Position numbers and translations under genes: made by a program. Below are positions 8,188 through 61,163 of a stretch of DNA of 64,000 bases, piece after piece. Position 1 is the first letter of the stretch. Every line of letters starts with the position of its first letter. The notes under the pieces were generated by a model, which ran no database searches, had not been told where the DNA came from, and saw nothing but the letters and a program-made list of their open reading frames with translations. The stretch covers positions 49,584 to 113,583 of the forward strand of contig JARLHR010000210.1 in NCBI GenBank assembly GCA_031292145.1, in the 5' to 3' direction. This DNA is from Clostridium sp. (GTDB taxonomy: Bacteria; Bacillota; Clostridia; Clostridiales; Clostridiaceae).

Positions 8188-8469
8188 TAGATATCCAAAT
8201 GTGAACTTAGACTTATGTGGTAATCTACCGAAATTCCATACATTTTTGTTCCACAGGACTATGAAATTTTCACTGGAAGGTTCTAAGCACAAGGTTGTGC
8301 CCATTTCTGCATGCTCCAAATATAAAATTTTGACAAGCAGTAAATGGTACAACCTTGTACTAAGAACCTTCACAGTTCAATTTCAAATGCCTGTTTCACA
8401 AAAATGTATGGAATTTCTAGTATGTAAACACTTTCTGAGTATAAATCAAAGTTATGATTTGGATATCTA
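8188..8469. repeat. GATATCC-ended palindromic element, subfamily a, copy 1
   Basis: A 282 bp element bounded by TA-GATATCC and GGATATC-TA. The two halves are extended imperfect inverted repeats: CCATACATTTTTGT (8238-8251) faces ACAAAAATGTATGG (about 8397-8411), and GGAAGGTTCTAAGCACAAGG faces CCTTGTACTAAGAACCTTC. The left 45 bp match, inverted, the right ends at 17108-17157, 41450-41493 and 50385-50434. It is closely related to the copy at 60854-61163. Short open frames inside it are not credible genes. Confidence 0.85.
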
Positions 8470-8611
8470 TAAATAACAACAATTAGGTCTATACTAAAAT
8501 TTTCTTAAATAACTACTTATAACAACATTATAACCCAATTAAATATATTTTTTCTAATATTCTTTTTCTATCAAATTGTTAGCACATTGAAAAAGCAACT
8601 AGACTGCTTTA

Positions 8612-8682
8612 AAATAAGGTACATTCAAAAAAATAATAGGCTAGAATACTAGTCTATCATTTTCTTGATTGCGCCTTATTTT
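8612..8682. repeat. AGGCAC-ended repeat, short copy; terminator of the GH5 gene
   Basis: A 71 bp internally deleted member with arms AAAATAAGG...CCTTATTTT and an inner stem AATAGGCTAG...CTAGTCTAT (inexact). It lies 10 bp beyond the stop codon of the leftward GH5 gene and is likely its intrinsic terminator. Confidence 0.7.
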
Positions 8683-8692
8683 ATTTAAAAAA

Positions 8693-11506
8693 TCACCCTA
8701 TCCATGCACCATTTGATCCTAATTGGTATCCATCTATTGTTGTATTAGTTATCATAGATCCATCTGCATTACAGTAGTACCAAGTTTCTCCGTCTTTTAT
8801 CCAACCTGTTGCCATATATCCATTGTTTCTCAAATAATACCAATTACCTCCATCCAATATCCATCCTGTTTTCATAACTCCATTTGTTAGAGATAAATAG
8901 ACCCATCCTATACTATCTTTTTGCCAGCCTACTTGTGGATCACCAGTTGCATTAACCATGTACCAATTAGTATCCACCTTAGCCCAACCTTGTGTTATAA
9001 TTTCAGTTGCTGGAATTTCAGAAGTTGATACAATATAAGTTGCATTTGCTTGAGTTGGTAAAATAATTGTATTAGCTCCTATAGTAACACCATCTGATAA
9101 TTTTATATACTTATCTAGTAAAGGCATATATTTATAGATTACTGCAGCTTTCCCATCTTCTTTATCTATAGGAATAATCGTTGCTAAACTTGATCCTTCT
9201 GCTGTTATAATTTCTCCTATATTCTTATCATTTTTAGTTATTGAAGTTATAGAAAGTTTATTTCCATCTGATGCCACTAGCTCCTTAGTTTGTTTAGCTA
9301 TTGCTCCTTCACCTAAAACTGTACTTACATTAGTTATCAAGTTTATTTCAATAGCTTTTGCTTCTTCTTTTGTTATATTGGCTATTACTACTGGCCTAGT
9401 ATATGGTATTTTAGGCACACCATTATTACTAATTGTTATACCATTATCATTAGATGTTGTACTTGAATTTGTGCTGGCTCCACTACTACCGCCAGATCCT
9501 CCGCCACCACCGCTAGAACTTCCGTTTGATGAAGAATTTGAATTTACATATAATTTAACTGCACTGCTTGTTGTTACATTCCCAATTTCATCTGTTACAA
9601 TGCAAAGATATTCGCCCTCATCGCTTTTTTCCACATTCTTTATAGTTATAGTTCCATCATTAGCTCCGCTTATGTCACCACCATCATTCAAATCTCTACT
9701 ATCTTTTTGCCATTGATAAGTAAGTAAACCTGATCCTGTTGCCTCTATGCTAAAACTTGCTGTCTTTCCTTTTATTACAGTTTGACTACTCGGTTGTTTT
9801 GTTATAGTAAGTGAGTTCGCATTCTCTGGTGCTGTTACTGTAATAATTGCAATTTCATGTTTGCTCGTATCAACTACTGATGTTGCTGTTATTCTTGCTT
9901 CTCCTGCACTCACTCCAGTTATAACTCCATTTTTATCCACGCTTACTATATTAGAGTTATCTGATTCCCATGTTACAGCTGCACCAGTTGTACTACTTGA
10001 ATTTATTGTTGCTATTAATACATCCGTTTCTCCCACTGTTAAGGTATCTGACGCTTTATTTAGGATTATTGATTCTGCATTATCTGTATCTGTTACAGTT
10101 ACAGTACATTCCGCAATTTTTCCCCCATCAACTGTTGTTGCTGTTATTACTGCTGTTCCTTTACTTACTCCAGTAACTTTTCCATTTGCATCTACTATTG
10201 CTATTGCTGCATTACTTGATTCCCATGTTACATTTTTATTTGTCGCATCACTTGGCAATACAGTTGCAGTTAGTGTTGATGTATCTCCTTTCGCTATATT
10301 TAAGCTTTTGGAATCTAAAGTCACTGACGTTACACTTACTGTTGATTTATAAACTGAAGCTATATCCTGATCTTTAAATGCACAATCCTGCCTATCATAC
10401 CACCCGTTGGTATCCCAAAGCATTGCACAATAGTTATATTCTTTTGCCAATGATACAACCGATTTAAAGAAATCAGCAGTACCTGTTTTTATTGTCTCAT
10501 CCGCCTTTCGCCTAGCAACTCCGTATTCACCAAAAATAACTCCATATCCTGCTTTCGTAAATTTTTGCATTTCCTCAAATTGTGATTTCATATAATTCCT
10601 ATCACTATCAGTACCCCAGCTATCCGAATATCCCCACGAGTTGTTCGTTTCATCAGCAATACAGAAAGCAGGCGGCGTGTAATAATGTACTGATACGATT
10701 AAATGATTTTGAATCACATCTGTCGGCATAACAAATCTATTATCACATGTGCTATCTATATCAGTATTATACCCAGCAATCAATAGATAACGTATTTTGT
10801 TATTCCCTCCAGAACCGCGAACAATATCAACAAATGCCTGATTAATTTCATTCACTTTTGCATAGCGTTGATCTAAAGTCAAACCTGTACCGAATGCATC
10901 ACCTAATTCCTCGTTAGCAGACTCAAAAATGAGGTGATCTGAATAATTTGCATAATGATTAACAATTTGTGTCCACATAGTCTTGTATTTGTTCATTGTT
11001 TCATTTCTAACTGCTTCATCATTAGAGCCAAAATTACTCCACCATCCGCCATCCCAATGGTCATTTATGATTGCATACATATTATTATCTAATACATAAC
11101 TAATAATTTGGTCAACTCTATCGAAATAAGATTGTGAAATAGTGTACTTACCATCTTTTGACATTAAATTTGACCATGCTACTGGAATGCGGACGGAATT
11201 AATGCCACTTGCTTTTAATCCATCTATCATCGCCTTGGTTGTTGTAGGCATCCCCCAAGCTTTTTCATAATCATAAGCAGTCGCATCAGCTGGTAACCAT
11301 GATGCCGTAGCCTCCATAGTATTGCCCAAATTCCATCCATATCCCATTTCTTGGGTTACTTCAATTGCAGTTTTTTCTGTCTGAGTTGTATTATTGATTG
11401 CTGCTTCAGTCTTCACTGTAGGAAATATCGCTATATACGTTAGTATTATTGCCACAACTAACATTTTAGCTAATGCTGATTGATATATATACTGTTTATT
11501 ATTCAT
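8693..11506 (-). CDS. Secreted GH5 endoglucanase with Big2, Ig-like and cell-wall-binding repeats
   Basis: Extracellular beta-glucanase, 937 aa. It begins with a signal peptide (hydrophobic core about residues 14-30, likely cleavage after TEAA). The GH5 catalytic domain spans about 45-385. It has GYGWNLGNT, NSVRIPVAW, His150 in INDHWDGG, the acid/base Glu199 in ESANEE, His-Tyr-Tyr at about 274-276 and the nucleophile Glu327 in VIFGEYG. Two Big2 domains (about 391-470 and 475-558) and an immunoglobulin-like domain (about 563-652) follow, then a Ser/Gly linker (about 653-685), an unassigned region, and four Trp/Gly-rich choline-binding-like repeats from about 838 (GWxKDGxxWYY style). The GWNLGNT and KAMIDGLKASG pattern suggests subfamily 4, which includes xyloglucanases. 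AAAGGAG precedes the ATG. Confidence 0.92.
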   Translation of the reverse strand: MNNKQYIYQSALAKMLVVAIILTYIAIFPTVKTEAAINNTTQTEKTAIEVTQEMGYGWNLGNTMEATASWLPADATAYDYEKAWGMPTTTKAMIDGLKASGINSVRIPVAWSNLMSKDGKYTISQSYFDRVDQIISYVLDNNMYAIINDHWDGGWWSNFGSNDEAVRNETMNKYKTMWTQIVNHYANYSDHLIFESANEELGDAFGTGLTLDQRYAKVNEINQAFVDIVRGSGGNNKIRYLLIAGYNTDIDSTCDNRFVMPTDVIQNHLIVSVHYYTPPAFCIADETNNSWGYSDSWGTDSDRNYMKSQFEEMQKFTKAGYGVIFGEYGVARRKADETIKTGTADFFKSVVSLAKEYNYCAMLWDTNGWYDRQDCAFKDQDIASVYKSTVSVTSVTLDSKSLNIAKGDTSTLTATVLPSDATNKNVTWESSNAAIAIVDANGKVTGVSKGTAVITATTVDGGKIAECTVTVTDTDNAESIILNKASDTLTVGETDVLIATINSSSTTGAAVTWESDNSNIVSVDKNGVITGVSAGEARITATSVVDTSKHEIAIITVTAPENANSLTITKQPSSQTVIKGKTASFSIEATGSGLLTYQWQKDSRDLNDGGDISGANDGTITIKNVEKSDEGEYLCIVTDEIGNVTTSSAVKLYVNSNSSSNGSSSGGGGGSGGSSGASTNSSTTSNDNGITISNNGVPKIPYTRPVVIANITKEEAKAIEINLITNVSTVLGEGAIAKQTKELVASDGNKLSITSITKNDKNIGEIITAEGSSLATIIPIDKEDGKAAVIYKYMPLLDKYIKLSDGVTIGANTIILPTQANATYIVSTSEIPATEIITQGWAKVDTNWYMVNATGDPQVGWQKDSIGWVYLSLTNGVMKTGWILDGGNWYYLRNNGYMATGWIKDGETWYYCNADGSMITNTTIDGYQLGSNGAWIG

Positions 11507-12200
11507 AGTGTTTTCTCCTTTACTTTTACATATTTATTTGTGAAAAAGCTTTAATGTGATTCTTTTAGGCACATTAAAATAAATAACAAGTCCAAAGTTT
11601 GCCATGAATATTTTTCATCAAGCAAGGAGGCAAATTGCCCTCAGGCGTTCCCATTTCGAGTATCCACGTTTTAGTTCTCTTACATAATCTTTGTCCAACT
11701 ACGTACCAACGACATAGTATTTATCAGGAGAATGTAAAGGTTTAAATTTGTATGTATGCTAAATGTATTTGAGAGTCTTTGAAGTTATATATTTAAAATA
11801 AAAAGATTAAGGTTAAAACTCAGATGGCTATTAATCTTATAAATTCCTTGTCATCTCCAATAAATCAAGGATATGTTTTGTGTGATAGTTATATAAAATT
11901 TATTATTTAATAGATTCATTTCGTTACTCATAATTATCTTAACTCCATTCCTTTACTGAATGCATAAAACATAATGAAATATTCCATTTCCATACCTTAA
12001 GTTGAGAATGTATGTATTTAAAATTTCTTTAAAAAAATTATATGTCTTTGCTATCTAAACGTATACTGTAAATATTTCACATACTTTACACTAATAATTA
12101 GTGAATTTTAGTTTTAACATTAATAATATAATTTTCTACATTTCGTAATTATTTAGCTAAGCATATTAATTAATTTGAGAATATAATTTTAGGCATAACA
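11507..12200. other. Non-coding upstream region of the GH5 gene with a decayed repeat
   Basis: About 690 bp without a credible gene. It begins with the GH5 leader. At about 11568-11690 there is a degenerate copy of the AGGCAC-ended repeat: the left end TTAGGCACATTAAAATAAATAACAAG is clear and the right end is not recognisable. The remaining AT-rich sequence should hold the GH5 promoter. I could not identify a convincing CcpA operator. Confidence 0.5.
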
Positions 12201-12236
12201 AATAGAGGTATTTAACTACTTAATACCTCTATTTCT
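12201..12236 (-). terminator. Intrinsic terminator of the GH74 gene
   Basis: Perfect hairpin AATAGAGGTATT...AATACCTCTATT just beyond the stop codon of the leftward GH74 gene. It separates GH74 from GH5 transcription. Confidence 0.75.
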
Positions 12237-12247
12237 ATACTTTATTC

Positions 12248-14686
12248 TCAGACTATATCTCCATATACTAATCCTCTCGTACCTGTTGCAACATAAATAC
12301 GCCCAAATACTCTTGGGTCTCCTGATATTGACCTAATATCACCATATTGATGCTTGTCATCATTGATTCTAATCCACGTAACCCCTTCATCATGTGACCT
12401 ATGGAATCCATACTCTCCTTTTATAGTTCCACTAGTATAAAGAGTTTTTATCTCACTTCCTTCAGCTGCTTTACCTAGACCAATTCTTTTTATAAAATCT
12501 TCTGCTTGTGATACTCTGTTCCCATTAAAAACATTACTTAAACTATCATAGGTAATTTTCCAAAGACCATGTTCCTGCATTGCCATCCATATAACTCCTT
12601 CTTTATATGACTCAACTCGAATCTCATAATCCTGCTCATAATCTATTCCAGCAAGGTTTACTTCCGGGAATCCCCATGGTGCTTTTACTTGATGAAAACT
12701 TAAGCCCTTATCGATACTTACATAAAATCCTGCTCCATTTATATTTACACTAAATCCGTAAAATATGTTTGAATTCACCCTATCAGACATAACCTTAAAA
12801 AGCAATTTATCATCTGAAAGAAGGTTACCATTTGCATCAAATACTTCAGTTTTTCTCCAAGTCTTTCCTAAATCCTGTGTATATACAAGTCTTGATGCAT
12901 AAATAGGATTGCCAAGTGACCAAAGAATAGTTTGTCCATCTGCTGATATAGATGTCCAGCCAGAAGTGACATTTGGCATCTTTAAATATTTAATTAATTT
13001 ATCTATATCTTCTGTAAGGCCAACTGGATCACTTAGTTGTTCCCAAGTAATGCCTTGATCAAAGGATGCTATAATCCCACCCTTTGTCTTTCCAGTCCAA
13101 TTTCCTCTTGGTGCAACCACTATAAGATTAGGATTACAATCTGGATAATCTGCATTCATAGCTGTTATCCATCTGTCTTTGTTGTGGTTTGCAAATGTAT
13201 TTTCTACTGGCTTATCAAGGTCAGTAAATACAAAGCCTCCATAATCACCAATAATGTCAATTAATTTAACATCACCTAAAGGTGGAGAATATATATTTAA
13301 GTGAACAGTTTCTTCCACTCCCTTATTACAGCATGCCCAAGTAACAGATTTATCTTCATCTGCTTTTGTCAAATCTTTTGTCATAAATATACCTGCACCT
13401 GTATTAAATAGGGCTATATTACTATCAAATGGATTTATTTTTAAATCAGACATCCAATGTATAAGCGAAATATTACCATTATATTCAGGTTTTTGATAAG
13501 AAACATTAAAATCAATCTTTCCTATACTAAGACCTGACATTATTGGCTTCCAAGTTAATCCATAATCTGTAGATCTATAGATAGTATCTGGTGCTGCCCC
13601 TATTGTAGAACATATTAAAGTTCCTTCAATTTGTGGATCTGCACTTATTCCTCCAATACCATAACCTAACCTTCTGCCAGGAGCTTTTGGATCATTATAA
13701 TTCGGTTCTATTATATTTTGAGGAGTAATATCTAAAGCTTCAAGCACTTCACCATTATTATCAAGCGCAAAACGATAAAGAGCACCGTCATAACATTTTC
13801 CCAAATCACAGCCATAAGTATTCCAATTTGACCATCCTATATTATATGCAGCATATGATATATATAAATATTTACCAATAAATTCTGCACGTTGGCCAAC
13901 ATACCCTGGATGATCATTTGGACCACCAATAATAGGTGAAGGTTCTCCTTTTAATTGCTTAAATGTTTCTCCTCCATCATTGCTTATATAAACACTTTGC
14001 CCACGAACATTATCATCAGGTGAGCCCTGCTCTCCATTTGTAGAGACTATAATCCTTCTTGAAGCACTGTTATTTTCACCACTAGATGAATCAATTTCTA
14101 CAAAGGCTATATTCCCTTCTGTTTCTTTGCCTGGATAGGCAACATTAAGTTTTGTCCATCTCTTACATCTATCTACTGTTTTCCATAGCCCATGCTTCAT
14201 AGTCCCCATGTATAAAATGTTTGAATTGTTTGGATCAACAACAAGTCTTTCTCCAGTGGATCTACCTGAAGCATTTCCATGAATTCCAGCTGTGTTTCCT
14301 TTTTCATCAATAATAGGTGTATCAAAGTATACAAAGTTAGCTCCATAATCATCGGAAAAAGCAATCTTATACGTCGGATAACTTCCAACCATTGAGTATA
14401 TATAACTAGGATTTTGTTTATCAAGAGCAATAGCTAGAGGATAAGTTTCCCAAACATTAGAATCTGTTACATGATCCACTAGTGATATCCAACATTCTTT
14501 ATTAAAATCGAATCTATAAATCCCCCCAATATCAGTTCTACAATACAAAATATTGGGTACTGAAGGGTGAAAGACAAAGCCTGTAACAAATCCACCTCCT
14601 GGTACTGAAATATGTTTATATATATATTTAATGCTTTCATTATGATTATTTGCATGTAAACAATTTTCTAATTTTTCATTAAGCAT
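12248..14686 (-). CDS. GH74 xyloglucanase-type glycoside hydrolase without signal peptide
   Basis: Beta-propeller hydrolase of family GH74, 812 aa. Members cut the glucan backbone of xyloglucan or its oligosaccharides. The N-terminal GGGFVTGFVFHPSVPNILYCRTDIGG is typical. The two conserved catalytic aspartates are visible as Asp52 in RTDIGG and Asp481 in IGDYGGFVF, a spacing that matches the family. Sialidase/BNR-like repeats (SxDxGxTWK) recur throughout. The sequence begins MLNEKLENCLHANN with AAAGGAGG upstream of the ATG. It has no hydrophobic leader, so the enzyme should be cytoplasmic, which is unusual for GH74. It is co-directional with GH31 121 bp upstream and probably shares its operon. 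Confidence 0.9.
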   Translation of the reverse strand: MLNEKLENCLHANNHNESIKYIYKHISVPGGGFVTGFVFHPSVPNILYCRTDIGGIYRFDFNKECWISLVDHVTDSNVWETYPLAIALDKQNPSYIYSMVGSYPTYKIAFSDDYGANFVYFDTPIIDEKGNTAGIHGNASGRSTGERLVVDPNNSNILYMGTMKHGLWKTVDRCKRWTKLNVAYPGKETEGNIAFVEIDSSSGENNSASRRIIVSTNGEQGSPDDNVRGQSVYISNDGGETFKQLKGEPSPIIGGPNDHPGYVGQRAEFIGKYLYISYAAYNIGWSNWNTYGCDLGKCYDGALYRFALDNNGEVLEALDITPQNIIEPNYNDPKAPGRRLGYGIGGISADPQIEGTLICSTIGAAPDTIYRSTDYGLTWKPIMSGLSIGKIDFNVSYQKPEYNGNISLIHWMSDLKINPFDSNIALFNTGAGIFMTKDLTKADEDKSVTWACCNKGVEETVHLNIYSPPLGDVKLIDIIGDYGGFVFTDLDKPVENTFANHNKDRWITAMNADYPDCNPNLIVVAPRGNWTGKTKGGIIASFDQGITWEQLSDPVGLTEDIDKLIKYLKMPNVTSGWTSISADGQTILWSLGNPIYASRLVYTQDLGKTWRKTEVFDANGNLLSDDKLLFKVMSDRVNSNIFYGFSVNINGAGFYVSIDKGLSFHQVKAPWGFPEVNLAGIDYEQDYEIRVESYKEGVIWMAMQEHGLWKITYDSLSNVFNGNRVSQAEDFIKRIGLGKAAEGSEIKTLYTSGTIKGEYGFHRSHDEGVTWIRINDDKHQYGDIRSISGDPRVFGRIYVATGTRGLVYGDIV

Positions 14687-14807
14687 AATATGCCTCCTTT
14701 ATTCTTAAATTTACTCAAAATTAGTTAAAATATCATGAACAAAAAAGATATAGCATATATACTTAGAATATCTAATTTTATTAATCTAACTAGTAAAACG
14801 CGTTATC

Positions 14808-16874: not shown

Positions 16875-17107
16875 TGTTAATCCTCCCATGCTTCATATTT
16901 TTTATATAACAACTTAAATTAATTTTATTCACTCTTATAAACTTTAGAAACCAAACATTTTAAATTAGCAGTTGCAGTTTTGTATACATTTCTTATAATT
17001 GTATTATATTAAGAATTTCTCCCGAATACTTTAAGTAAATTACTGATTACTAACACAATATTGTTAAAAATATATTTCTGATGATATAAATATAAAACAA
17101 ATCCATC
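16875..17107. promoter_or_regulatory. Divergent promoter region of the GH31 and AraC genes
   Basis: AT-rich intergenic region between the leftward GH31-GH74 genes and the rightward araC-type gene. It is the natural place for the regulator's operators. A near-palindrome ACACAATATTGT-like segment lies at about 17049-17064. No operator can be assigned by eye. Confidence 0.35.
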
Positions 17108-17157
17108 TTATTTCGACTGACCATCTCATAAGTTTAGATCTTAAATTGGATATCTAT
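17108..17157. repeat. Solo right end of a GATATCC-ended element
   Basis: About 50 bp matching the right terminus of the subfamily b elements: TTATTTCG, then CTCATAAGT, then TTGGATATC-TA. The rest of the element is missing. It ends about 16 bp before the araC ribosome binding site, so the transcription start of that gene probably lies within or upstream of the relic. Confidence 0.7.
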
Positions 17158-17184
17158 AAATCTTTAATGAAAAGGGGTAATAAA

Positions 17185-18063: not shown

Positions 18064-18231
18064 TATGGCCGCTTAATATATTGTGCTAAATTAAAATTTG
18101 ATTGTATATTATTATTCTCATTGCAAATAATATGCTTATTATATTTTATTGTTGTAATGGTATTTTTTAATTTGTATACTATCTATATTTATGTAAGGCA
18201 CAACCAATAATGTACTGTAAAGGGGTTTAAT

Positions 18232-19080: not shown

Positions 19081-19103
19081 GAAATTTATTTCTCATGCTT
19101 AAA
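19071..19103. terminator. Bidirectional terminator between convergent genes
   Basis: Hairpin TTTAGCATGAGAAAT...TTTCTCATGCTTAAA. It overlaps the last codons of both the rightward binding-protein gene and the leftward small lipoprotein gene. Confidence 0.75.
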
Positions 19104-40711: not shown

Positions 40712-40945
40712 CTAAAGTTACGTGGCAATCAACCGAACTTAGATACATATGTGTTCCATATGACTATGAAAATTTCGCTGGAAGCACTAAGTGGGAGGTT
40801 GCACCCACTTTAGCTTGCTCCAAATTTTATTTCGGACAAGCTAAAGTGGAACAACCTCCCACCAAGTACTTTTAGCAGCTTATTTTCAAATGCCTATTTC
40901 ACACATATGTATCTAAGTTCTTTGTTTGTGCGCGCATTTAGGCAT
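40712..40945. repeat. GATATCC-type element, subfamily a, copy 2 (ends degraded)
   Basis: It matches the interior of the copies at 8188 and 60854: CCGAACTTAGATACATATGTG, CTATGAAAATTTCGCTGG, then an inner hairpin around AAGTGGGAGGTTGCACCCACTT, then CAGCTTATTTTCAAATGCCTATTTCAC and ATATGTATCTAAGTT. The outermost GATATCC ends are not recognisable. Confidence 0.75.
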
Positions 40946-41005: not shown

Positions 41006-41077
41006 AGAACTGCCATTAAGAAACTTCAACAGCTTATTTTTCAAATGCCTATTACACAAAAATTTTTCTAATTTCTG
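41006..41077. repeat. Fragment of a GATATCC-type element (right arm)
   Basis: TTAAGAAACTTCAACAGCTTATTTTTCAAATGCCTATTACACAAA-type sequence. It corresponds to the right arm of subfamily a (compare about 61030-61085). It lies between copies at 40712 and 41198, making a nest of repeats. Confidence 0.65.
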
Positions 41078-41197
41078 GTGAAGATATTCCCTTAAGTCTA
41101 GCTTTCTTAAATTACTTTTTAGTTACAGTATAACTCTATATTTTAAAATATGTCATAGCTAGAAATAAGGATAAAAATGAGTTATCATACCCTCCTA

Positions 41198-41493
41198 TAG
41201 ATATCCAACTCATTTATTGGAATATAAATGTACATTTACTATATTTTAAGTGTATAACTACACTAGAAATAAGTAACATATTGTGTGGAGTGTTTCATTG
41301 GAATTTTGATGGTAATGATTCTTGATTAAAAGTTGTTCCAAAATGCTTGTTCGAAGCTTGCCTTCGAAGCAAGCATTTTGGGCACAATTTTTAGTCTTAG
41401 AATCATCCATCAAAATTCCTGTAAACCGGAACACAATATGTTACTTATTTCGGTTAATTATCACATAAGTCCAAGTTCACATTTGGATATCTA
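41198..41493. repeat. GATATCC-ended palindromic element, subfamily b, copy 1 (complete)
   Basis: A 296 bp element, TA-GATATCC to GGATATC-TA. Inverted arms: AGAAATAAGTAACATATTGTG (41270-41290) faces CACAATATGTTACTTATTTC (about 41432-41451), and GGAATTTTGATGG faces CCATCAAAATTCC. The central stem GCTTGTTCGAAGC...GCTTCGAAGCAAGC is strong. Its right 45 bp are homologous to the inverted left end of subfamily a. It ends 7 bp from the stop of the next leftward gene. Confidence 0.88.
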
Positions 41494-49910: not shown

Positions 49911-50036
49911 GAAAAGCATCTCCTAATAGTATTTATGCTGTATAATATGATATTTAATATAAGATTGTTCTAATTATAATGAACAACCCTAAAGCTTCAT
50001 CATTTCACACTTATTTCCTTTAATTTTTAAACTAGA

Positions 50037-50073
50037 ATATAAAAAGAAAGTGCTCATCATGAACACCTTCTTT
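50037..50073 (-). terminator. Intrinsic terminator upstream of the importer operon
   Basis: On the minus strand, stem AAAGAAGGTG...CACTTTCTTT followed by TTTTATATT. It closes read-through from the leftward diguanylate cyclase gene, or could be a leader hairpin for the importer, whose start is about 130 bp further on. Confidence 0.65.
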
Positions 50074-50126
50074 CTCATAATTCTCCAACATACATTCTTA
50101 CCTTAATATAATAATCACATAACTTA

Positions 50127-50434
50127 TATATGTCCAAATTATATATTTGACTTATTCTTGGTGTAAACAAGAACAATAGTTCAATTTTAGTAAGTTGCTG
50201 CACTAGAAATAAGTAACATATTGTGTGGAGTATTTCATTGGAATCTTGATGGTAATGATTCTTGACTAGAAATTGTCCCAAAAAGCTTGTTCAATGCTTG
50301 TCATTGAAGCAAGCTTTTTGGTGACAACTTCTAGTCGTAGAATCATCCATCGAAATTCCAGAGAAACCGGAACACAATATGTTACTTATTTCGGTGAATC
50401 AACACATAAGTTTAAGTCTTACTTTTGATATCTA
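50127..50434. repeat. GATATCC-type element, subfamily b, copy 2
   Basis: The core from 50190 is very similar to the copy at 41198: ACTAGAAATAAGTAACATAT, TTGATGGTAATGATTCTTGA, a central stem AAAAGCTTGTTCAATGC...GCAAGCTTTTT, AGAATCATCCATC, and CACAATATGTTACTTATTTC. The right end is TTTTGATATC-TA. The left end is degraded (TATATATGTCCAAA). It lies between the importer operon and the cyclase gene. Confidence 0.8.
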
Positions 50435-50465
50435 TAGGCAACTGAAAAATTTAATACCTTATAAA

Positions 50466-52865: not shown

Positions 52866-53114
52866 ATTTACACCCCATCACTAAATCATTATCAGACAAA
52901 TTATACATTAATTTTATCAAATTTTATAATTATTTTATATATTTTTCTTATAATTAGTGGTATTTTTTCTGCATCTTAAACAAAACAAACATCAATATTA
53001 CATTTAATATACATATTCGCCATTTTTACTTAAAATATTTTATATCTACCGTGAATGTAAATACAACATATCTTAAATATATTCAAAAAAAATAATAAGT
53101 CAGCATTCTAGTAT
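52866..53114. other. Non-coding region upstream of the cyclase gene
   Basis: AT-rich, no gene. It includes the cyclase promoter and, at about 53074-53114, a left end of the AGGCAC-type repeat (ATTCAAAAAAAATAATAAGTC). Confidence 0.5.
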
Positions 53115-53161
53115 AAAAATAGATTATGGACAAAACCTTTTTGTCCATAATCTATTTTTAT
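53115..53161. terminator. Strong terminator downstream of the chemoreceptor gene
   Basis: Perfect stem AAAAATAGATTATGGACAAAA / TTTTGTCCATAATCTATTTTT (split here for length) with a 3-base loop. It follows an AGGCAC-type repeat end. Confidence 0.85.
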
Positions 53162-53240
53162 TATACCTATAAATGAAGCAACATTTCCGATATTACCTTA
53201 AAATATCTTTTAAATTTTTACATACAAAAAGAGGTGATCA

Positions 53241-55235
53241 CTATAGTCTAAATCCGTCTACTTTTTCTTTTAGTTCCTCCGACATATCCTTCAAATTGTT
53301 AAAATTATTAACAAATTCATCTGTTGAAGCTGTAATCTCCTGTGCTGTTGCTGAAACTTGTTCGGTTCCTGCTGCTGTTTCTTCTAATATTGCAGATAAA
53401 CTTTCTACTTTTCCTACGACTTCGTCCTTCATCTGACTTATAGAATTTAATCCTTCGGCTATTTTTCCTACTTTTCCTGTTAAATCCACTATTGACGTAA
53501 CTATTTCTGTAAATATAACCTGCGATTCTTCAACAGCCTTTTCTTGATCGTCAACTGTTTCACTAGTTACTAAAACTCTATTAACTGCTAATTCAGATTT
53601 ACTTCTTATTTCTTTTATTACTTCATCAATCTGTTTAGCCGAAACAGAAGTTTCTTCTGCAAGTTTTCTTATCTGATCAGCAACTACTGCAAATCCTTTT
53701 CCCGATTCCCCGGCTCTAGCTGCTTCTATTGCGGCATTTAATGCTAGAAGATTTGTTTGTTCTGTAATTGTACTTATTGTTTTATTCATTACACCTATTT
53801 TTATGATACTTTCTGATACTTCGCTTACAACTTCTTTAACTAATTCAGTACTTTTTTTAGTTTCAGAAGACTTATTCATTACAGTTTTTACAACTTCTAT
53901 TCCATTTTCACCTAGATTATTTGTTTTTCCTGCAACACCATTAACGCTTTCTGTTACTTCTCCTATCTTATTTATGGATTCTGATAATAAATGCATACTT
54001 TGTGATATTACTTCTAAATTATTAGCAGATTCTATAGTTCCATTTGATATTTGAGTTATTGTTCCACTCACTTGATTCATTGACGATGCTATTTCTTCAC
54101 TCATACTAGCTGAATTCATTGCATTTTCATTTAAATTAATAACTGAGTTATCTACACTCTTAATTAATTCTGCAACTTTTTTCTGCATACTATTAAAACT
54201 ATTTTCTAATACATTAAATTCATAGATGGAATTATTAATGACAATATCTTTATTAAATTCACCTTTTTCAGTTCTTTCCATTCCATCTTTTAATGTATTT
54301 ATCCCTTTACTTATTCTTCTTGTAATATATATCGTTATAACTACTGCAATTATTGCTAATAGAATACAAGTTATAATCGATGCTGCATTAGAATCTTTTT
54401 CTGATTTTCTTAATTCATTGGATGGTATTTCTAGTATTAACTTCCACCCAGTAAGATCTGAAGTTTCAAAATAACCTTCATATAAATTGCTATTATAATT
54501 AAATTTAATTTTATCACTGCTACTATTTTTTATTTCATCCCAACATTCATATTCAGTTGGCTCTGTTCCTGCAATTTTTGACTTGTCACTATTTGAAATT
54601 ACTACACCATCTTTATCTGTAATAATAAAATCTCCTGTTTGTCCATACTTTAGACTTGACAGCTGATTAGATAGAGCTGTCAAGTCTATATCTATAGCCA
54701 TAACTCCTAAGGATTTATTATCTTTAGTTACAGCTTTATATATTGTTATTGCATTTTTACCAGTTAGAGTATCCTTATATGGACTATGTATTGTGAATTT
54801 ATTTGAATTACTAACTGCTTCTTTAAACCATGACTTTTCAGTAGCATTATATCCTGCTGGTAATTCTGCATCTAATATTTGAAATACTTTTCCTGTATTA
54901 TCTGAAAAATAGATATTTAATATGCTTTTATCTGTATTTTTAATTAAATTCATATGTTCTTTTAAATCATTATATGGTGACTCTTCTAGATTAAATTTGT
55001 CATGCTCAATTAATGTTTGTAATATATCTTCATAATATGTAATTTTATTATTTATTATTTCTTCACCTATGCCACAGAGCAGATTCCCGTTTTCTTCAAA
55101 ACTTTTTTCATTACTTTTCTTGGATATTGTGTTTGAAATAATCCCCAGAATTACTACTGGTATTATAGCCAACATCGTAATTGTAATCAACAAATATGTT
55201 CTTATACTTTTTGTCTTAGTTTTCTTTTTTTGCAT
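53241..55235 (-). CDS. Methyl-accepting chemotaxis protein with dCache sensor
   Basis: 664 aa. A transmembrane helix at about 12-33, an extracellular dCache domain (about 35-280, with [20 protein letters not shown] and [10 protein letters not shown]) and a second helix at about 285-305 are followed by HAMP and a long cytoplasmic four-helix signalling domain. The receptor tip [19 protein letters not shown], then [15 protein letters not shown], is perfectly conserved. The small-molecule ligand is not predictable; many dCache receptors of this kind bind amino acids. It has no nearby che genes. The ATG at 55235 follows GAGGTGAAAT. Confidence 0.95.
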
Positions 55236-55465
55236 ATTTCACCTCATAAATTTAATAATTAATTCCAATTTATATTATATAGTAAAGTGCATTAAAGTGT
55301 CGGATTACAAATTAACTTTACCTATTTTTATCTAAATTTCTTGTTTTATTGATAAATTCTTATATCATTTTGAATCTCATTGCATATTTCATTTTAATTT
55401 TTATATATTACTATCAAATTTATTTTAACTTTATCTTTATAAAATAATATTATTGCCTCCTAAAA

Positions 55466-55515
55466 AATCAAAAGGGATATCTCAAAACCTTAATTTTAAG
55501 ATATCCCTTTGATTT
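55466..55515. terminator. Terminator of the amt gene
   Basis: Stem AATCAAAAGGGATATCT...AGATATCCCTTTGATT, 10 bp downstream of the leftward amt stop codon. Confidence 0.85.
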
Positions 55516-55524
55516 ATTCATTTC

Positions 55525-56757
55525 CTATCTATTGAATCCTGAATATGCTTCTTCCCCATGTAGATAAAGATCTAATCCTTCAGCTTCTTCATTTGAAGTT
55601 GCTCTTACTTTCATTACAGCCTTCATAACTTTAAGTATTAAGAATGTTACAATTGCTGCATATAAAGCAGTAGCACAAGTTGATATTAAATGTGCCTTTA
55701 GAAGGGCGAAATTACCATATATTAATCCATCAGCCCCTGCTGGGTTAATTGCCTTTGATGCAAATATCCCTGTAGCTATAGATCCCCATATTCCTGCTAC
55801 CCCGTGACACCCAAAAGCATCTAAAGCATCATCATATCCTAATTTTTTCTTTAAAACAGCTATAGCAAAGAAACTTAATGTTCCACCAACTAATCCAATA
55901 AACATGGCTGATATTGGACTAACAAAACCTGCACCTTGAGTGATCGCAACTAATCCAGCAATAGCTCCACTGACTATTCCAAGCGCTGTAGGCTTTTTAT
56001 AAAGCAACCATTCGCAAGCTGCCCAGCCAATTGCCCCTGCTGCTGCAGAAGTATTTGTAGTAAAAAATGCATTTATTGCTACATAGTTCATAGAAAGAGC
56101 ACTTCCTGCATTAAATCCAAACCATCCAAACCATAAAAGCCCTCCACCTAGTATTGCCATAGGTATATGATGTGGATCCGGACTTGGATTTTTTCTCTTC
56201 CCAATAACTAGTGCGGCAATAAGGCCTGAAACCCCTGAATTTATTTCAACAGGATGTCCACCAGCAAAGTCAAGAACACCTAAATTTTTTAACCAGCCAT
56301 TAGTTCCCCATACCCAATGAGCAATAGGATCATAAACTAGCGTACTCCATAAAATTATCAATACTAAAAAAGCTGGAAATGTCATACGTTCAGCAACGGA
56401 ACCTGAAATAACAGCTGCAGTAATCGCTGCAAACATTAATTGAAATATTACAAATTCTAAATGTGGTATCGTACCTGCATAATCTGCATTTGGTGTAATT
56501 CCTATGTTACTTAAAAAGCTCCAATCCAATCCACCAATCATACCTTTAATATCTGGACCAAAAGCTAAGGTATAACCTACAAAAATCCATTGTATGGATA
56601 TGATCACAAGTGCTGCATAGTTTTGTATTGTAATACTTAATACATTTTTACTTCTTACCATACCACCATAAAATAAAGCTAAACCTGGTACCATTAACAT
56701 TACTAATGCAGCACAAATAAATACAAATCCCATATCCGCGCCATTTAACACTTCCAT
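55525..56757 (-). CDS. amt: Ammonium transporter (AmtB family)
   Basis: 410 aa, about 11 transmembrane helices. Typical motifs: GLALFYGGMVRSKNVLS, FGWFGFNAGSA, and DAFGCHGVAGIWGSIATG with the pore histidine. There is no long cleaved signal, as in most Gram-positive Amt proteins. AAGGGGG lies 8 bases before the ATG. No glnK/PII gene follows it in this window, unlike the usual amtB-glnK pair. Its leader carries an antitermination-type structure at 56819-56895, so expression is probably set by nitrogen status. Confidence 0.96.
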   Translation of the reverse strand: MEVLNGADMGFVFICAALVMLMVPGLALFYGGMVRSKNVLSITIQNYAALVIISIQWIFVGYTLAFGPDIKGMIGGLDWSFLSNIGITPNADYAGTIPHLEFVIFQLMFAAITAAVISGSVAERMTFPAFLVLIILWSTLVYDPIAHWVWGTNGWLKNLGVLDFAGGHPVEINSGVSGLIAALVIGKRKNPSPDPHHIPMAILGGGLLWFGWFGFNAGSALSMNYVAINAFFTTNTSAAAGAIGWAACEWLLYKKPTALGIVSGAIAGLVAITQGAGFVSPISAMFIGLVGGTLSFFAIAVLKKKLGYDDALDAFGCHGVAGIWGSIATGIFASKAINPAGADGLIYGNFALLKAHLISTCATALYAAIVTFLILKVMKAVMKVRATSNEEAEGLDLYLHGEEAYSGFNR

Positions 56758-56818
56758 CTTTTATTCCCCCTTGAATAATTTTATTAAATTTTAATTGTAT
56801 TTTTAATTTGCTGGTAAA

Positions 56819-56895
56819 TAAAAAAGCGCATCCATCTCAAAGGTATACCCAACCCTGGATATATCTTTCTTTGAAATGAAAACGCCATTGTTTTC
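56819..56895 (-). promoter_or_regulatory. Candidate ANTAR-type antiterminator leader of amt
   Basis: On the minus strand, the first stem-loop is GAAAAC-(AATGGC)-GTTTTC (56878-56895) and the second is TATATCC-(AGGGTT)-GGGTATA (56844-56863). Both loops are six bases with A at position 1 and G at position 4. A competing intrinsic terminator pairs GCGTTTTCATTTCAAAG (56869-56885) with CTTTGAGATGGATGCGC (56826-56842), one mismatch only, followed by TTTTTT. It uses the 3' half of the first stem. Tandem A1/G4 hexaloops next to a terminator are the known RNA target of ANTAR-domain antiterminators. I see the structure; the protein is not in this window. Confidence 0.7.
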
Positions 56896-57315
56896 TACAT
56901 AATTATATATTTTTTATTACTGTTATTAGTTTACTATCATGGATTTTCTATGTCAATATAAAATGAAAAATTTTTTTCATTTGTATTAGAATTTGAATAA
57001 TTCTATTACACAAGTACAACTTTTGCTTAAATAGCATTGTTCAATTCAATTTTATTCCACTGCTTATCCTCTATCTTTTTGCATATATTCTTACATTCTT
57101 TGGTTATAAACATTATAATCCATGAACTTATTACGCGTAATATTGTTAACCATAAAGATATTTTTGGGTAATAAACCATTCTCCGAAAATATTGATAGCA
57201 GAAAAAGCTATGCATTAGCCACATATTAGTGCCATGCCTGCCTAGAAGAGCAAACAGCTTGTCTAGTTTTAGAAATTTAATAACATAATTGCTTGCAATA
57301 ATAATTACTAAAATT
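56896..57315. other. Promoter region of amt and unexplained sequence
   Basis: About 420 bp. The portion next to the leader should contain the amt promoter (AT-rich, TATTGACATAG-like element on the minus strand near 56950). A leftward open frame of 65 codons (57027-57224) rich in Trp, Ile and Tyr has no convincing ribosome binding site and I do not call it a gene; it might be a relic of a membrane protein. Confidence 0.4.
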
Positions 57316-57356
57316 AAAAATCTCTTATTTGTTCAATATTAAAATAAGAGATTTTT
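57316..57356. terminator. Terminator of the DUF4261 gene
   Basis: Stem AAAAATCTCTTATTT...AAATAAGAGATTTTT. It lies about 40 bp beyond the leftward DUF4261 stop codon and has T/A runs on both sides. Confidence 0.8.
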
Positions 57357-57398
57357 CTAACTATTATTCTAGTTAATATATAATTTAAATTTACTTGC

Positions 57399-58268
57399 CT
57401 AACTTCTATTTTCACTAAAAAATTCTTTACCTGGATTAATGTCCAAAACGACACGTGCAGGCTCTGCAAGTGAAATTTCATATTTACATTCCCATTCATC
57501 ATTTTCTGAAATACCTTGTATTGTTTTAACCTTTGTAGCAGCATCCCCTTTGTCAAAAATATAATATCCATAAGAATATAAAATATTGGCTATTTGATTA
57601 GGATCTAAATTTTTAAAGTGGCATTGTAAATCACATAATCCTATTGCTGAAAGTCCTAATGTATCCATTAAATATTTGTTTCTATTTCCTTCAACATTAA
57701 ACAATCTTACATTTAATGTGCCGAACAAAGGATCATAGTCATCATTTAATGGATTATTTTCCAAGTAATCTTCTCTACTTATTACCTGCTCTGTAATATA
57801 AAAATTAATTCCTTCACATGGTATTAATTCTACTACAGCATAAAGTGCTTTCTGAAAAAGTTCTATTCTTTTAGAATAATTTAGTCCAACTGCCATTATA
57901 TCTGCCACTGAAATATTAAATTTACACTTCTCAATTAATTCTTTCTTAATATCGTAACTCCATGATTGTTCTAAAGATCTTTTCAATTTTTCATGTTGCG
58001 GATCCTCATCATTTAAACTAATGGTTATTCCAACTGGAACATTTGCATTTTTATACTCCATTATGTAATCTAAAAAACCAAATGTAATAGCTGTATCTTG
58101 CCTAGATATAACTTCAACTTTTCCACAATATTTTTTAATATTTTCTAACAATTTATCTTCTAAAATAAGTGGCTGCTCTTCCATCCAAAGTTCCGCTCCA
58201 TACATTGATACAAATGCATCTGGTGCATCTTGTAATTTTCCTTTATCATTTTCTTCAAACTTATTCAT
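57399..58268 (-). CDS. DUF4261 domain-containing protein
   Basis: 289 aa, soluble. The C-terminal 80 residues (DTLGLSAIGLCDLQCHFKN, LDPNQIANILYSYGYYIFDKGD, then WECKYEISLAEPARVV) fit DUF4261, a domain often found in proteins associated with contact-dependent or effector systems, though with no established activity. The N-terminal part (residues 20-190) has AELWMEEQPLILEDKLLENIKKYCG and similar mixed alpha/beta sequence. There is no signal peptide. AAGGGGAAATA precedes the ATG. It is monocistronic. Function unknown. Confidence 0.75.
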   Translation of the reverse strand: MNKFEENDKGKLQDAPDAFVSMYGAELWMEEQPLILEDKLLENIKKYCGKVEVISRQDTAITFGFLDYIMEYKNANVPVGITISLNDEDPQHEKLKRSLEQSWSYDIKKELIEKCKFNISVADIMAVGLNYSKRIELFQKALYAVVELIPCEGINFYITEQVISREDYLENNPLNDDYDPLFGTLNVRLFNVEGNRNKYLMDTLGLSAIGLCDLQCHFKNLDPNQIANILYSYGYYIFDKGDAATKVKTIQGISENDEWECKYEISLAEPARVVLDINPGKEFFSENRS

Positions 58269-58343
58269 TATTTCCCCTTCTTTCTTTGCAATAATTTTAA
58301 TTATTTTTCTAATTTATTTTTTGTTTTCGCGTAAAGTTAAAAT

Positions 58344-58385
58344 AAAAAAGCCATCTCAAAATATAATTACTTTGAGACAGCTTTG
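58344..58385 (-). terminator. Intrinsic terminator upstream of the DUF4261 gene
   Basis: On the minus strand, AAAGCTGTCTCAAAGT...TTTTGAGATGGCTTT followed by a T-rich tract. It lies about 240 bp after topoisomerase and 76 bp before the DUF4261 gene, so it may end topoisomerase transcripts or attenuate the next gene. Confidence 0.7.
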
Positions 58386-58628
58386 CCTATTAAATATAGA
58401 TTAATTATAACATGATAGGTAGAAATTTAATACTAAAATAACCTTGTGATTTAATTTTTATTTTAAACATTGTATGCAAATTGGTTCCCCCACGACAATG
58501 ACAATCCCTCGTTAGTTCATCTACATTCCAATGAAGCTTGATTCTTAAACTTAATGTACCTTTAACCGTAGAAGGAATTACTTTTTATATGCACTTCTCT
58601 CACGTCATTTAATAATTATATTTTATCA
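58386..58628. other. Non-coding spacer downstream of the topoisomerase gene
   Basis: No gene. A minus-strand TATAAT near 58402-58408 could be the -10 of a promoter for the DUF4261 gene; its transcript would read through the hairpin at 58344-58385. The rest, including a C-rich patch CCCCCACGAC near 58486, has no recognised function. Confidence 0.4.
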
Positions 58629-60788
58629 TTAAATGAACTCTATTTTCCAATTAAAATATCCAGTTTCTTCATTTCTCTCATATTTAAAATATGCTGAAAA
58701 TGTATTTCCTTTTTTACTTTTTAAATTTCTAAAACCTACTTTTCCGTTTTTTAGTAAAAGTTCAACCATTTCCTTGGATACAGTTTTACCAAAGTACTTA
58801 ATATATTTATCATCTTTCCAAATAGTATACTTACATCCATTCTTCCAATTACTACACCCAAAGTTTTTTTCACCTTCAACTACTGGATTCCCGCAAACAG
58901 GACAAGCTCCTATACTCTCAGTATCCTCTGGTATCTCTACTTTAAATCTTGATAAAGCACCTGTATCATTTTTTATTAATTCAACAGATTTAATAGTGAA
59001 ATCTGTTATCAATTTCATGAAATCGCTTTTAGCAAATTTACCTTTTTCAATATCTGAAAGGGTTTTCTCTAGTCTACCTGTATATTCTAAGTCCAACAAA
59101 TCTCTTACAGGAAATATTTCAACAATATTTCTTCCAAGCTCCGTGCACATAAGGTTTTTCCCTTTTGTTTTTAAATAACCTATATCCTTTAATTTTTTTA
59201 TAGTTTCCGCACGAGTCGCTGGTGTTCCTATGCTATACCCACTCAAAATAGCCTGCATCATTTCTTCTGAATCTTCATCTTTACCTTCAACACCTTTTCC
59301 GCAGGTTTCCATAACTCTAAGTAATGTCTTTTCAGTATGATACTTAGGTGGTTTTTTGGTAACTGAATTTACTTTTGAATCTACAATATCTACATTTTCA
59401 TTTATTTCAACCTTTGGAAGAATGACATCCTTACTTTCTATTTTCTCTACAACCTTCCAGCCCTCAACTAGCTTTACTTTTCCTTTTGAAACAAACTCTC
59501 CTGGAACCTCTGGATTATTAACCTTTAAAGTTACCTTTGTTTCTTCAAATTCAGCTATAGGCATAAACTGCATTATAAATCTATTTTTAATAGCCTCATA
59601 TACTATTTTTTCATCAGCAGATAACCCTGATGGCTTCATATATGTCGGAGTGATTGCACTATGGCTTTCAACCTTTGAGCTGTCAAAAATTCTTTTAGAT
59701 GTACTAAATTTAATGTCTTTTTCATATGGTAATCCAACTTTTAACGTATCTAAAACCTTTTTTGCTCTATCTTTTAAACTTTCCTCTAATACTACACTCG
59801 CTGTTCTTGGATAAGTTGTAAATTTCTTTTCATAAAGAGATTGGGCAACCTTAAGAACCTTATCAGATGTCCACCCCTTATATTTACTTGTAATATGCCC
59901 TTGCAAGTTTGACAAATTAAATAAATACGGAGGGTATTCCTTTTTTAATTCTGTCTGTTTATCAACAATTCTAGCAGTCCCACCTTTAAGTAAAGGCAAA
60001 AATTTATCTAAGTATTCCTTCTTATCAAATTTTTCAGACTCATTTTCATAATATAAGCCTTCAAATTCCTCATTGCTAGAATTCTTAAAATTTGATACTA
60101 ATTTATAGTAAGTAGTTGCTGTAAAGTTTTCAATTTCTTTATCTCTATCATAAATGATCTTTAATGTAGGAAGAAGAACTCTCCCTATATTAATAGTCTT
60201 ATTTTCTTCAAATTTATATTTTAAGGTACTCACAGAAGTTAAATTTATTCCAATTATCCAATCACTCCATTGCCTTCCTATACCAGCATCTTGTAGCGAT
60301 TGCATTTCTTTATTATCCTTTAAGGCTTCCATTCCGCCCTTAACTTCATCGGGTGTCCATTCATTTAAAAGTAATCTATATATAGGTTTTTTGACATCGA
60401 AATATCCAAATAGCTCATCAGCTATAACCTGACCTTCTCTATCAAAGTCAGTAGCTGAAATTATACCATCTACATCTTCTCTATCAATTAAATTCTTTAT
60501 TATTCCAAGCTGCTTTTTCGCTCCCTTATCCTCTGTTGTTCTATCCACACCATCACATTTTACTTTATACAAAAACTTCTCTGGGATAAATGGGAACTTT
60601 TCAAATCTCCAGCCCTTCATGTTTTCATCATAGTCCTTTGCATCAAAAAGCTGCAAAAGATGTCCAAATGCCCATGTTATATAATAGCCATTGCCTTCAA
60701 AATACCCATCTTTCCTGTTTTTTATCTTATATGCATCAGCAATATTCTTTGCAACAGATGGTTTTTCCGCAATAATAACCTTCGCCAT
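58629..60788 (-). CDS. topB: Type IA DNA topoisomerase, topoisomerase III-like
   Basis: 719 aa, about the length of TopB. It relaxes negative supercoils and decatenates DNA through a transient 5'-phosphotyrosine. The Toprim domain starts AKVIIAEKPSVAKNIADAY and has the acidic cluster SATDFDREGQ. The active-site tyrosine is Tyr326 in FTTYPRTAS. A C-terminal four-Cys zinc ribbon (CPVCGNPVVEG...CSNW, C) is present. Two normally strict motifs differ: NLTR is NLTS, and GRVQTPTL is GRVLLPTLK. AAAGGAGG precedes the ATG. The region upstream is occupied by nested repeats. The divergence may mark a separate clade rather than housekeeping TopB. Confidence 0.9.
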   Translation of the reverse strand: MAKVIIAEKPSVAKNIADAYKIKNRKDGYFEGNGYYITWAFGHLLQLFDAKDYDENMKGWRFEKFPFIPEKFLYKVKCDGVDRTTEDKGAKKQLGIIKNLIDREDVDGIISATDFDREGQVIADELFGYFDVKKPIYRLLLNEWTPDEVKGGMEALKDNKEMQSLQDAGIGRQWSDWIIGINLTSVSTLKYKFEENKTINIGRVLLPTLKIIYDRDKEIENFTATTYYKLVSNFKNSSNEEFEGLYYENESEKFDKKEYLDKFLPLLKGGTARIVDKQTELKKEYPPYLFNLSNLQGHITSKYKGWTSDKVLKVAQSLYEKKFTTYPRTASVVLEESLKDRAKKVLDTLKVGLPYEKDIKFSTSKRIFDSSKVESHSAITPTYMKPSGLSADEKIVYEAIKNRFIMQFMPIAEFEETKVTLKVNNPEVPGEFVSKGKVKLVEGWKVVEKIESKDVILPKVEINENVDIVDSKVNSVTKKPPKYHTEKTLLRVMETCGKGVEGKDEDSEEMMQAILSGYSIGTPATRAETIKKLKDIGYLKTKGKNLMCTELGRNIVEIFPVRDLLDLEYTGRLEKTLSDIEKGKFAKSDFMKLITDFTIKSVELIKNDTGALSRFKVEIPEDTESIGACPVCGNPVVEGEKNFGCSNWKNGCKYTIWKDDKYIKYFGKTVSKEMVELLLKNGKVGFRNLKSKKGNTFSAYFKYERNEETGYFNWKIEFI

Positions 60789-60817
60789 GATATTTTTTAT
60801 CCTCCTTTAGTTATCAT

Positions 60818-60853
60818 TTAAGCACATGAAATAAAATAATAGACAATCATATG
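60818..60853. repeat. Left part of an AGGCAC-type repeat interrupted by another element
   Basis: TTAAGCACATGAAATAAAATAATAGACAATC is the left end of the AGGCAC-type family. Its right end, GTTATATTATTTCTAATTATGCCTTA, is found at 61167-61192, on the other side of the inserted GATATCC-ended element. Confidence 0.65.
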
Positions 60854-61163
60854 TAGATATCCAAAGCATCAACTAGATTTATGCGGTAATCTACCGAAAT
60901 CATATACATATTTGTTCCATAGGGCTATGAAATTTTCGCTGGAAGGTTCTAAATGCAAGGTTGTGCCCATTTTAGCTTGCTCCTGAAACAAGTTCAGGAC
61001 AAGCTAAAATAGAACAACCTTCCATTAAGAACCTTAAACAGCTTAATTTCAAATGCCTATTTCACAAATATGTATATGCTTTCTAGTTCAGAGTCACTTT
61101 CAAAGCCTAGTAGCAATGTAAATATATTTTATTAATAAGTACAATTCATGAATTGGATATCTA
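60854..61163. repeat. GATATCC-ended palindromic element, subfamily a, copy 3 (complete)
   Basis: A 310 bp element, TA-GATATCC to GGATATC-TA, inserted in an older repeat. It is closely related to 8188-8469: GCGGTAATCTACCGAAAT, ATACATATTTGTTCCATAGG, CTATGAAATTTTCGCTGGAA, GGTTCTAAATGCAAGGTTGTG, central stem TTTTAGCTTGTCC-like arms, GAACAACCTTCCATTAAGAACC, and ATATGTATATGC. It lies just upstream of the topoisomerase gene. Confidence 0.88.

Follow-up and report, generated by a model that had tools for sequence, protein, structure and literature searches.

The window analysed here is a stretch of 64,000 nucleotides from a Clostridium draft genome of 6.34 Mb (genome G000, contig C111:49584-113583). 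It contains six copies of a repeated element whose middle forms a long hairpin. We consider it likely that these copies belong to a high-copy family of miniature inverted-repeat transposable elements (MITEs), moved in trans by a transposase of the IS630 family, and that they carry the hairpin as a separate cargo. As judged from its sequence the family is a MITE: it is short, has inverted terminal repeats, is present in many dispersed and polymorphic copies and has ends that match those of an autonomous element. The initial annotation of the window had guessed at mobilisation by an IS630/Tc1-type transposase; this guess is supported by an IS630-family transposase lying between matching ends in another genome of the genus (G002), and by a related part in C. 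beijerinckii HUN142 (G003). The hairpin middle is a separate conserved module, found between other transposon ends as well, which goes beyond what the window alone shows.

The terminal sequences were described by a matrix. The 46 full copies have 92 ends, of which the matrix takes in the 82 that contain TAGATA and not the other 10, so TAGATA is invariant by selection. The aligned end reads TA-TAGATA(T)(C)CAA(A/T)...TAGACTTAT. The T and the A directly outside TAGATA, which were not selected, are kept in 93-97% of the 82 ends, and the next base farther out from this TA border is A in just 43-44%. Left and right ends are common over a 31-bp block and diverge beyond it, thus each copy has a direction. 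Sites of at least 28 bits number 107 in 2.42 Mb, against 0 in random sequence of equal length and of the same dinucleotide make-up, and the spacing of end pairs peaks at ~280-315 bp.

The candidate partner was found by a search for DDE_3 that covered 16 genomes. It gave 21 matches in 9 of the 16, and four loci carry MITE ends, i.e., L264 in G002 and L268, L273 and L278 in HUN142. The element at L264 (~861-2056) contains two open reading frames (ORFs), 951-1493 and 1456-2028, which overlap near an A run and may be joined by a frameshift. ORF1 has helix-turn-helix domains and matches positions 5-134 of NF033545 with 80.0 bits (under the cutoff of 100). ORF2 matches positions 140-296 of NF033545 with 107.3 bits (over the same cutoff) and DDE_3 with 94.6 bits (E 6.6e-27). 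On these matches the partner is classed as an IS630-family element with a predicted DDE transposase. Its ends score 32.9 and 33.3 bits, to be compared with a median of 31.8 for the training set, to which L264 does not belong. The transposase pieces of HUN142 have one end each, with scores of 36.5, 36.5 and 29.4 bits. MITE copies abut the L264 element on both sides (~568-860 and 2057-2367), i.e., the locus is a MITE-IS630-MITE array. A c-di-GMP-II riboswitch (72.8 bits) is present downstream of this array, at L264:2714-2797.

With ORF2 as query, 11 of 68 genomes of the genus gave a match; the frame is whole only in G002 and is partial, weaker or decayed in the others. HUN142 has transposase parts at three contig ends, 80-81% identical to G002 over the last 95 residues. 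At the weaker loci, ends were seen just at L298 (12.8 bits) and L303 (11.9 and 18.3 bits, in the same direction), all of them weak. The search for end pairs found no element of 1-3 kb between MITE ends in the 2.42 Mb of G000, G002 and G013; the autonomous copy surfaced via DDE_3 only. In G000 no match to ORF2 was found (10 candidates scored), nor did whole-genome searches, in which the ORFs of the window were not checked singly, find an IS630-type transposase with these ends. It should be noted that contigs C22, C46, C90, C153, C169, C177, C250, C272 and C276 of G000 all start no farther than ~300 bp from an element end. Breaks in the assembly of G000 may thus be due to the repeats, and the absence of the transposase there may be an assembly gap. 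The whole partner is present in G002 only and copies are present in many genomes, thus the MITEs outnumber their partner; they probably also outlast it.

Empty and occupied sites were found between sister species. G002 and G013 are ~96% identical where aligned, and 15 of their 55 indels hold a copy, at least two of these 15 looking like internal deletions. The cleanest empty site, AAAGAAA-TATA-TGAGAATT, is that of HUN142 opposite the MITE-IS630-MITE array of G002, with flanks 96% identical. The occupied allele of G002 is AAAGAAATATA-GATAACC...GGATATC-TATATGAGAATT, of which the simple reading is a 4-bp TATA duplication. The spacers between neighbouring copies, from TATC of one to GATA of the next, were also considered at 24 listed junctions: 15 are of 6 bp (TATATA in 12), four of 4 bp (TATA), three of 0 and one of 10 bp, while the remaining entry, of 42 bp, duplicates a junction already counted. 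Spacers of both 6 and 4 bp would be expected of an element that ended in TA and duplicated TA; those of 6 bp favour a 2-bp duplication.

In the genome of the window, searches with a single query (40 candidates scored each) gave at least 69 matches for subfamily A and at least 83 for subfamily B, and a copy was frequently hit on both strands. Profiles built on A and on B retrieve one another's copies. Contigs of G000 totalling 820,634 bp, most of which were picked for holding matches, gave 80 non-redundant copies, of which the A profile counts 23 as full; G002 and G013 together gave 82 copies in 1.2 Mb and 95 in 1.6 Mb. By extrapolation, each genome would contain a few hundred copies. The 219 unique copies of at least 180 bp form clusters A (88), B (80) and C (30), with 21 outside.

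A subfamily B copy has matches in 18 of the 68 genomes of the genus. The core model has matches in 19 of 68, and 11 of the 68 have at least 71 matches. Most of the searched genus genomes of 5.4-6.7 Mb have ~71 core matches or more; G021 and G033 (6.1 Mb) have 2 and 1, respectively. In the search of the whole family (206 genomes) the core matches 19 genomes; 18 of these are of the genus, and the one from outside it has a lone marginal hit (E 3e-4). Among named genomes one exact two-end pattern is found in 3 stretches, from C. beijerinckii HUN142 and one metagenome-assembled genome. No match was obtained in one search of plasmids with a subfamily B copy, in one search of phages with a subfamily A copy, or in viral contigs with one exact 30-nt end pattern. 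Rfam gave 0 matches in the window, and at 8 loci nothing on a copy reaches the gathering score. Another short repeat, CTCAGCGAACGAATGTGAGTCGAGTTTC or a similar sequence, is present in hairpins of the family, where it lies close to the loop or within an arm, as well as outside them (e.g., g13a 337206-337665 and g2a 318826-319174; G000 C198:14982-15057).

The same core is found between other transposon ends. Core matches number 145 in G065, 93 in G018, 77 in G001 and 19 in G067, and in eight stretches examined from these genomes no end of the GATATCC type was found. Copies of G065 are bounded by GGGGCTGTCTCA...TGAGACAGCCCC and measure ~275 bp; some are shorter, with the central hairpin deleted. 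This GGGGCTG-type end may be that of IS1182. In G065 the GGGGCTGTCTCA pattern has 68 + 59 matches and its reversed control 1 + 0; in the stretches of G000, G002 and G013 the pattern has 0, 1 and 0, respectively. Among the matches listed, the inward GGGGCTGTCTCA end pairs of G065 less than 500 bp apart contain a core in 26 of 34 cases and none in 8, and 42 of 86 cores have a GGGGCTGTCTCA end within 330 bp. One G065 copy (L103) has ends of the GATATCC type, thus both types of ends coexist in this genome. Copies of G018 have a third type of flank, most of those examined finishing in TACGTCCTTTATTTA. In two sets of genomes (G012, G023 and G033; G002, G013 and G003) cores without ends adjoin, by eye, apparently the same gene, which suggests that some cores outlive their transposon ends. 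The hairpin thus behaves as a cargo module common to MITEs with different ends.

Three further features of these copies were observed. Cores of G018 on C16 (e.g., 1606930-1607517) are often in inverted pairs whose starts are ~415-580 bp apart. Among the matches listed, 27 cores of G065 have the identical score of 69.6, which suggests a recent burst. GGGGCTG-type copies of G065 (L317-L320 and L321-L324) are, by eye, often flanked by complementary bases (AAAT|...|ATTT, AAAAAA|...|TTTTTT), as if they were inserted into small palindromes.

The core of ~200 nt is a single long hairpin, which is imperfect; its internal loops are conserved and its stems compensated. Two window cores were folded: one gave -100.8 kcal/mol (mean of its shuffles -37, z of -15.9), the other -101.6 kcal/mol (mean of its shuffles -40, z of -14.7). 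In a cross-subfamily alignment of 32 sequences, GTTGTTCC ... GCTTGTC ... GGAGCAAGC ... CAAC is well kept, several unpaired positions are at least 90% conserved, and 95.4% of the core cells are paired, against 77.9% when shuffled and 35-45% when slid. The alignment has 135 doubly changed cells (44 when shuffled) and a covariation score of 0.516 (0.189 when shuffled), each value being reached by 0 of 500 shuffles; since the aligned cores are related sequences, these fractions are not probabilities. The two arms of a copy pair with each other to 0.912, 0.948 and 0.967 in subfamilies A, B and C, against 0.652, 0.811 and 0.809 when arms are swapped within the subfamily (0 of 500 shuffles). One strand is distinguished from the other. 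Read from left end to right end, 151 representatives have 145 G-U against 88 A-C at pairs backed by the folds of both strands (39 against 21 by column). The RNAalifold energy is lower for this strand in all three subfamilies, and R1, the model of the central 76 nt of the core, favours one strand strongly (e.g., 80.1 vs. 45.6 bits).

The placement of the copies was analysed in the stretches of G000, G002 and G013, with ORFs of at least 110 aa as genes. Intergenic copies number 168 of 175; of the other seven, four overlap an ORF and three lie within one. The density, in copies per kb, falls from 1.16 in convergent gaps through 0.37 in tandem gaps to 0.05 in divergent gaps (47, 117 and 3 copies, respectively), and 65% of the 117 copies in tandem gaps are closer to the 3' end of the upstream gene. 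This bias would fit either purging near promoters or a role at 3' ends.

The mechanism that we propose has two parts. An IS630-family transposase would recognise the shared end TATAGATATCCAA...TAGACTTAT and move MITEs of ~280-315 bp in trans, with insertion at TA-rich targets; the copies in the genome of the window would have been moved by a transposase since lost or unassembled. The cargo of ~200 nt would be made by read-through at the 3' ends of genes, its active strand probably running from left end to right end, and action as a folded RNA or as a single-strand hairpin is, tentatively, the most likely way for it to work. A more precise proposal is that the core is a functional structured RNA, absent from Rfam, which hitch-hikes in MITEs of at least two unrelated end types within the genus and is sometimes kept at the 3' ends of genes after the decay of the transposon ends; this we put forward with more doubt than confidence.

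Several results weigh against the interpretation as a MITE moved by an IS630-family transposase and carrying a working hairpin. MITE ends are absent from 17 of the 21 DDE_3 loci, and no DDE_3 match was found in G000 or in the copy-rich genomes G001, G012, G022, G031 and G065. The evidence on the target duplication is divided: 6 of 16 compared sites could be parsed by eye, three as 4 bp (the MITE-IS630-MITE array, g2b 118350 and g2a 215636) and three as 2 bp (g13a 127337, g13a 332116 and g2a 473869, the empty allele of the last having AA in place of TA). As for the hairpin, two-sided change was found in 13 of 23 pairs, against a shuffled mean of 11.0 (46 of 500 shuffles), and further pair types number 37, against 35.7 (181 of 500), i.e., both values are unexceptional. 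Conversion from arm to arm, or shared ancestry, can also preserve the pairing of arms. In 11 copy pairs shared by G002 and G013, core mismatches are 48/866 and 79/1502 (5.5% and 5.3%), against 183/2866 (6.4%) in the noncoding flank; purifying selection on the core is thus not evident, since these shared copies have no clear difference from their flank. Without the two most diverged pairs the values become 16/711 and 36/1236, against 136/2332, a post-hoc comparison on which we do not rely; a recheck of four copies with short flanks was left unused, paralogues having been caught for at least two of them. Finally, copies in tandem gaps are more often antisense (75) than sense (45), and this excess therefore argues against a simple role in the sense-strand mRNA.

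These results bear first on the possibility that the elements are plain MITEs, i.e., that mobility is all the hairpin serves and that it is a fold-back relic, its arms being kept alike through descent from few source copies and through conversion of one arm by the other in replication or repair. The mostly intergenic and polymorphic copies are in agreement with it, as are the lack of constraint across the 11 shared copies taken together, the ordinary values of two of five covariation measures and, among the matches listed, the 27 G065 cores of one score, which suggest few sources. On the other hand, conversion would erase asymmetric internal loops, whereas a number of unpaired bases vary little or not at all between subfamilies; the core lies between different ends and so is no by-product of one end type; and G-U exceeds A-C on one strand. 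A hairpin without function is a serious possibility which, in our opinion, falls somewhat short of probable.

The presence of a core between different ends may also be read in the reverse order, the core being the original unit, i.e., a host RNA or hairpin element captured several times by MITEs, with the GATATCC ends as one vehicle among several. Such an origin is suggested by the cores without GATATCC ends in G065, G018, G001 and G067, by the GGGGCTGTCTCA ends around the G065 cores (26 of 34 end pairs among the matches listed), by the single G065 copy with GATATCC-type ends (L103) and by the cores without ends beside seemingly the same gene in two sets of genomes (G012/G023/G033 and G002/G013/G003, by eye). 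The copies examined are few, however (some seven cores in G065 and as many in G018, two in G001 and one in G067); outside the genus, the 206 family genomes contain one marginal hit (E 3e-4). We regard capture of a pre-existing core as possible but rather doubtful.

A bidirectional hairpin could also be a transcription terminator or a stabiliser of mRNA 3' ends and be retained between convergent genes for that reason. Convergent gaps, with 47 copies, indeed have a density per kb ~25-fold above that of divergent gaps, with 3, but by eye a T run after the stem is absent from the window copies, and the purging of insertions near promoters gives the same bias; this role is thus unlikely. A REP-like element mobilised through its single-strand hairpins by a tyrosine transposase (Y1) would agree with long, conserved, high-copy intergenic hairpins and is nevertheless highly improbable, given the inverted repeats, the TA at both borders and a matching transposase of the DDE type (no search for Y1 was made).

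The preferred interpretation, i.e., a MITE family with an IS630-family partner and a separate hairpin cargo, can be compared with known repeats. In the available passages of two papers (PMC3049150, PMC2229807), RUP of Streptococcus pneumoniae is described as an element of 107 bp with ~110 copies, TA-containing targets and ends matching IS630-Spn1. The present family resembles RUP, so described, as a MITE at TA-containing targets with IS630-matching ends and a predicted RNA stem-loop. It differs from the 107-bp RUP, as compared by description, in its ~280-315 bp, its three subfamilies, its long cargo hairpin, whose internal loops are conserved, and the presence of this cargo between other ends. 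The Correia/NEMIS/CREE elements of Neisseria have, in the passages available, inverted ends of 24-26 bp, a terminal TA and an RNA hairpin cut by RNase III (PMC10969869, PMC3049150, PMC2229807); they are likened to the present elements by description and are of ~107 and 155 bp, against ~280-315 bp here. In the passage of a 2007 review, RUP alone had an insertion sequence with matching ends.

With IS630 insertion sequences, only ~31 terminal bp are common, and by eye the interior of the MITE is unlike the transposase gene. The family resembles ERIC, BOX and REP/REPIN as high-copy palindromic bacterial repeats; REPs, as described in the parts of the sources at hand, are of 20-40 bp and tied to tyrosine transposases, unlike the present family. 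In titles and in the opening lines of abstracts (ISfinder and subscription papers lying outside this literature) no account was found of these ends, of such a Clostridium MITE or of a shared cargo hairpin. A MITE with IS630-matched ends is thus of a kind already known and represented by RUP; the hairpin cargo common to different ends appears to be new.

In the window itself, R1 recovers exactly the six copies that had been named in the initial annotation (E-values, taken on the better strand, between 3e-13 and 2e-17). Clear GATATCC ends are seen in three of them, weaker ends in one and no ends in the other two. The end motif TATAGATATCCAA, with at most 2 mismatches, occurs 16 times, against 6.7 +/- 2.9 in shuffled sequence (0 of 100 shuffles reach 16). 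The three copies that had been called complete are so, with ends of 0-1 mismatch at both borders. The first (8188-8469, minus strand, TA-GATATCC ... GGATATC-TA) has its central core at 8285-8361 (80.1 bits with R1; the fold of 8225-8422, minus strand, is that of -101.6 kcal/mol). The second (41198-41493, plus strand, both ends present) has its core at 41324-41397 (71.6 bits; the fold of 41260-41457, plus strand, is that of -100.8 kcal/mol). The third (60854-61163, minus strand, one end with 1 mismatch) has its core at 60951-61026 (80.0 bits). The copy at 50127-50434 (plus strand, core at 50264-50337, 63.8 bits) is nearly complete, i.e., more so than had been stated, both ends being kept with 2 and 1 mismatches. 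No end motif within 2 mismatches was detected at 40712-40945 (minus strand; core at 40789-40863, 81.5 bits, the highest in the window) or at 62484-62686 (plus strand; core at 62548-62620, 68.5 bits).

The six copies had been taken for one family: they do belong to a single superfamily, but they fall into two subfamilies, A (8188, 40712 and 60854) and B (41198, 50127 and 62484). As for their description as near-complete palindromes, the strong hairpin fold agrees with it, but the copies are not symmetric, with distinct left and right ends and a strand preferred by the model. Their non-coding nature accords with the 168 intergenic copies out of 175, except that a mechanical ORF of 114 aa (8132-8476) spans the 8188 copy. 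The three relics are half-elements when read by eye: 17108-17158 (plus strand) retains the right end only (...ATTTCG...ATAAGTTTAGATCTTAAATTGGATATCTATA), 41006-41085 (minus strand) is a single arm of a subfamily A copy and 61325-61410 (minus strand) a single arm of a subfamily B copy. The 8188 copy starts 26 bp upstream of a SbcD-like ORF (6926-8161, minus strand), which is followed downstream by a SbcC-like ORF (3463-8161 for the two, minus strand, Pfam). SbcCD cleaves DNA hairpins; the long palindrome in front of these ORFs is probably a chance neighbour.

MITEs are usually viewed as shrunken copies of a single transposon; here one elaborate hairpin is common to MITEs with different ends, so cargo and vehicle evolve apart. 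Even if the hairpin is inert, the likely transposase partner, a near-exact empty site and the two end types of G065 make the conservation of a MITE interior testable. Should the hairpin work as an RNA, a notable share of the intergenic DNA of industrially used bacteria would have been delivered by transposition.

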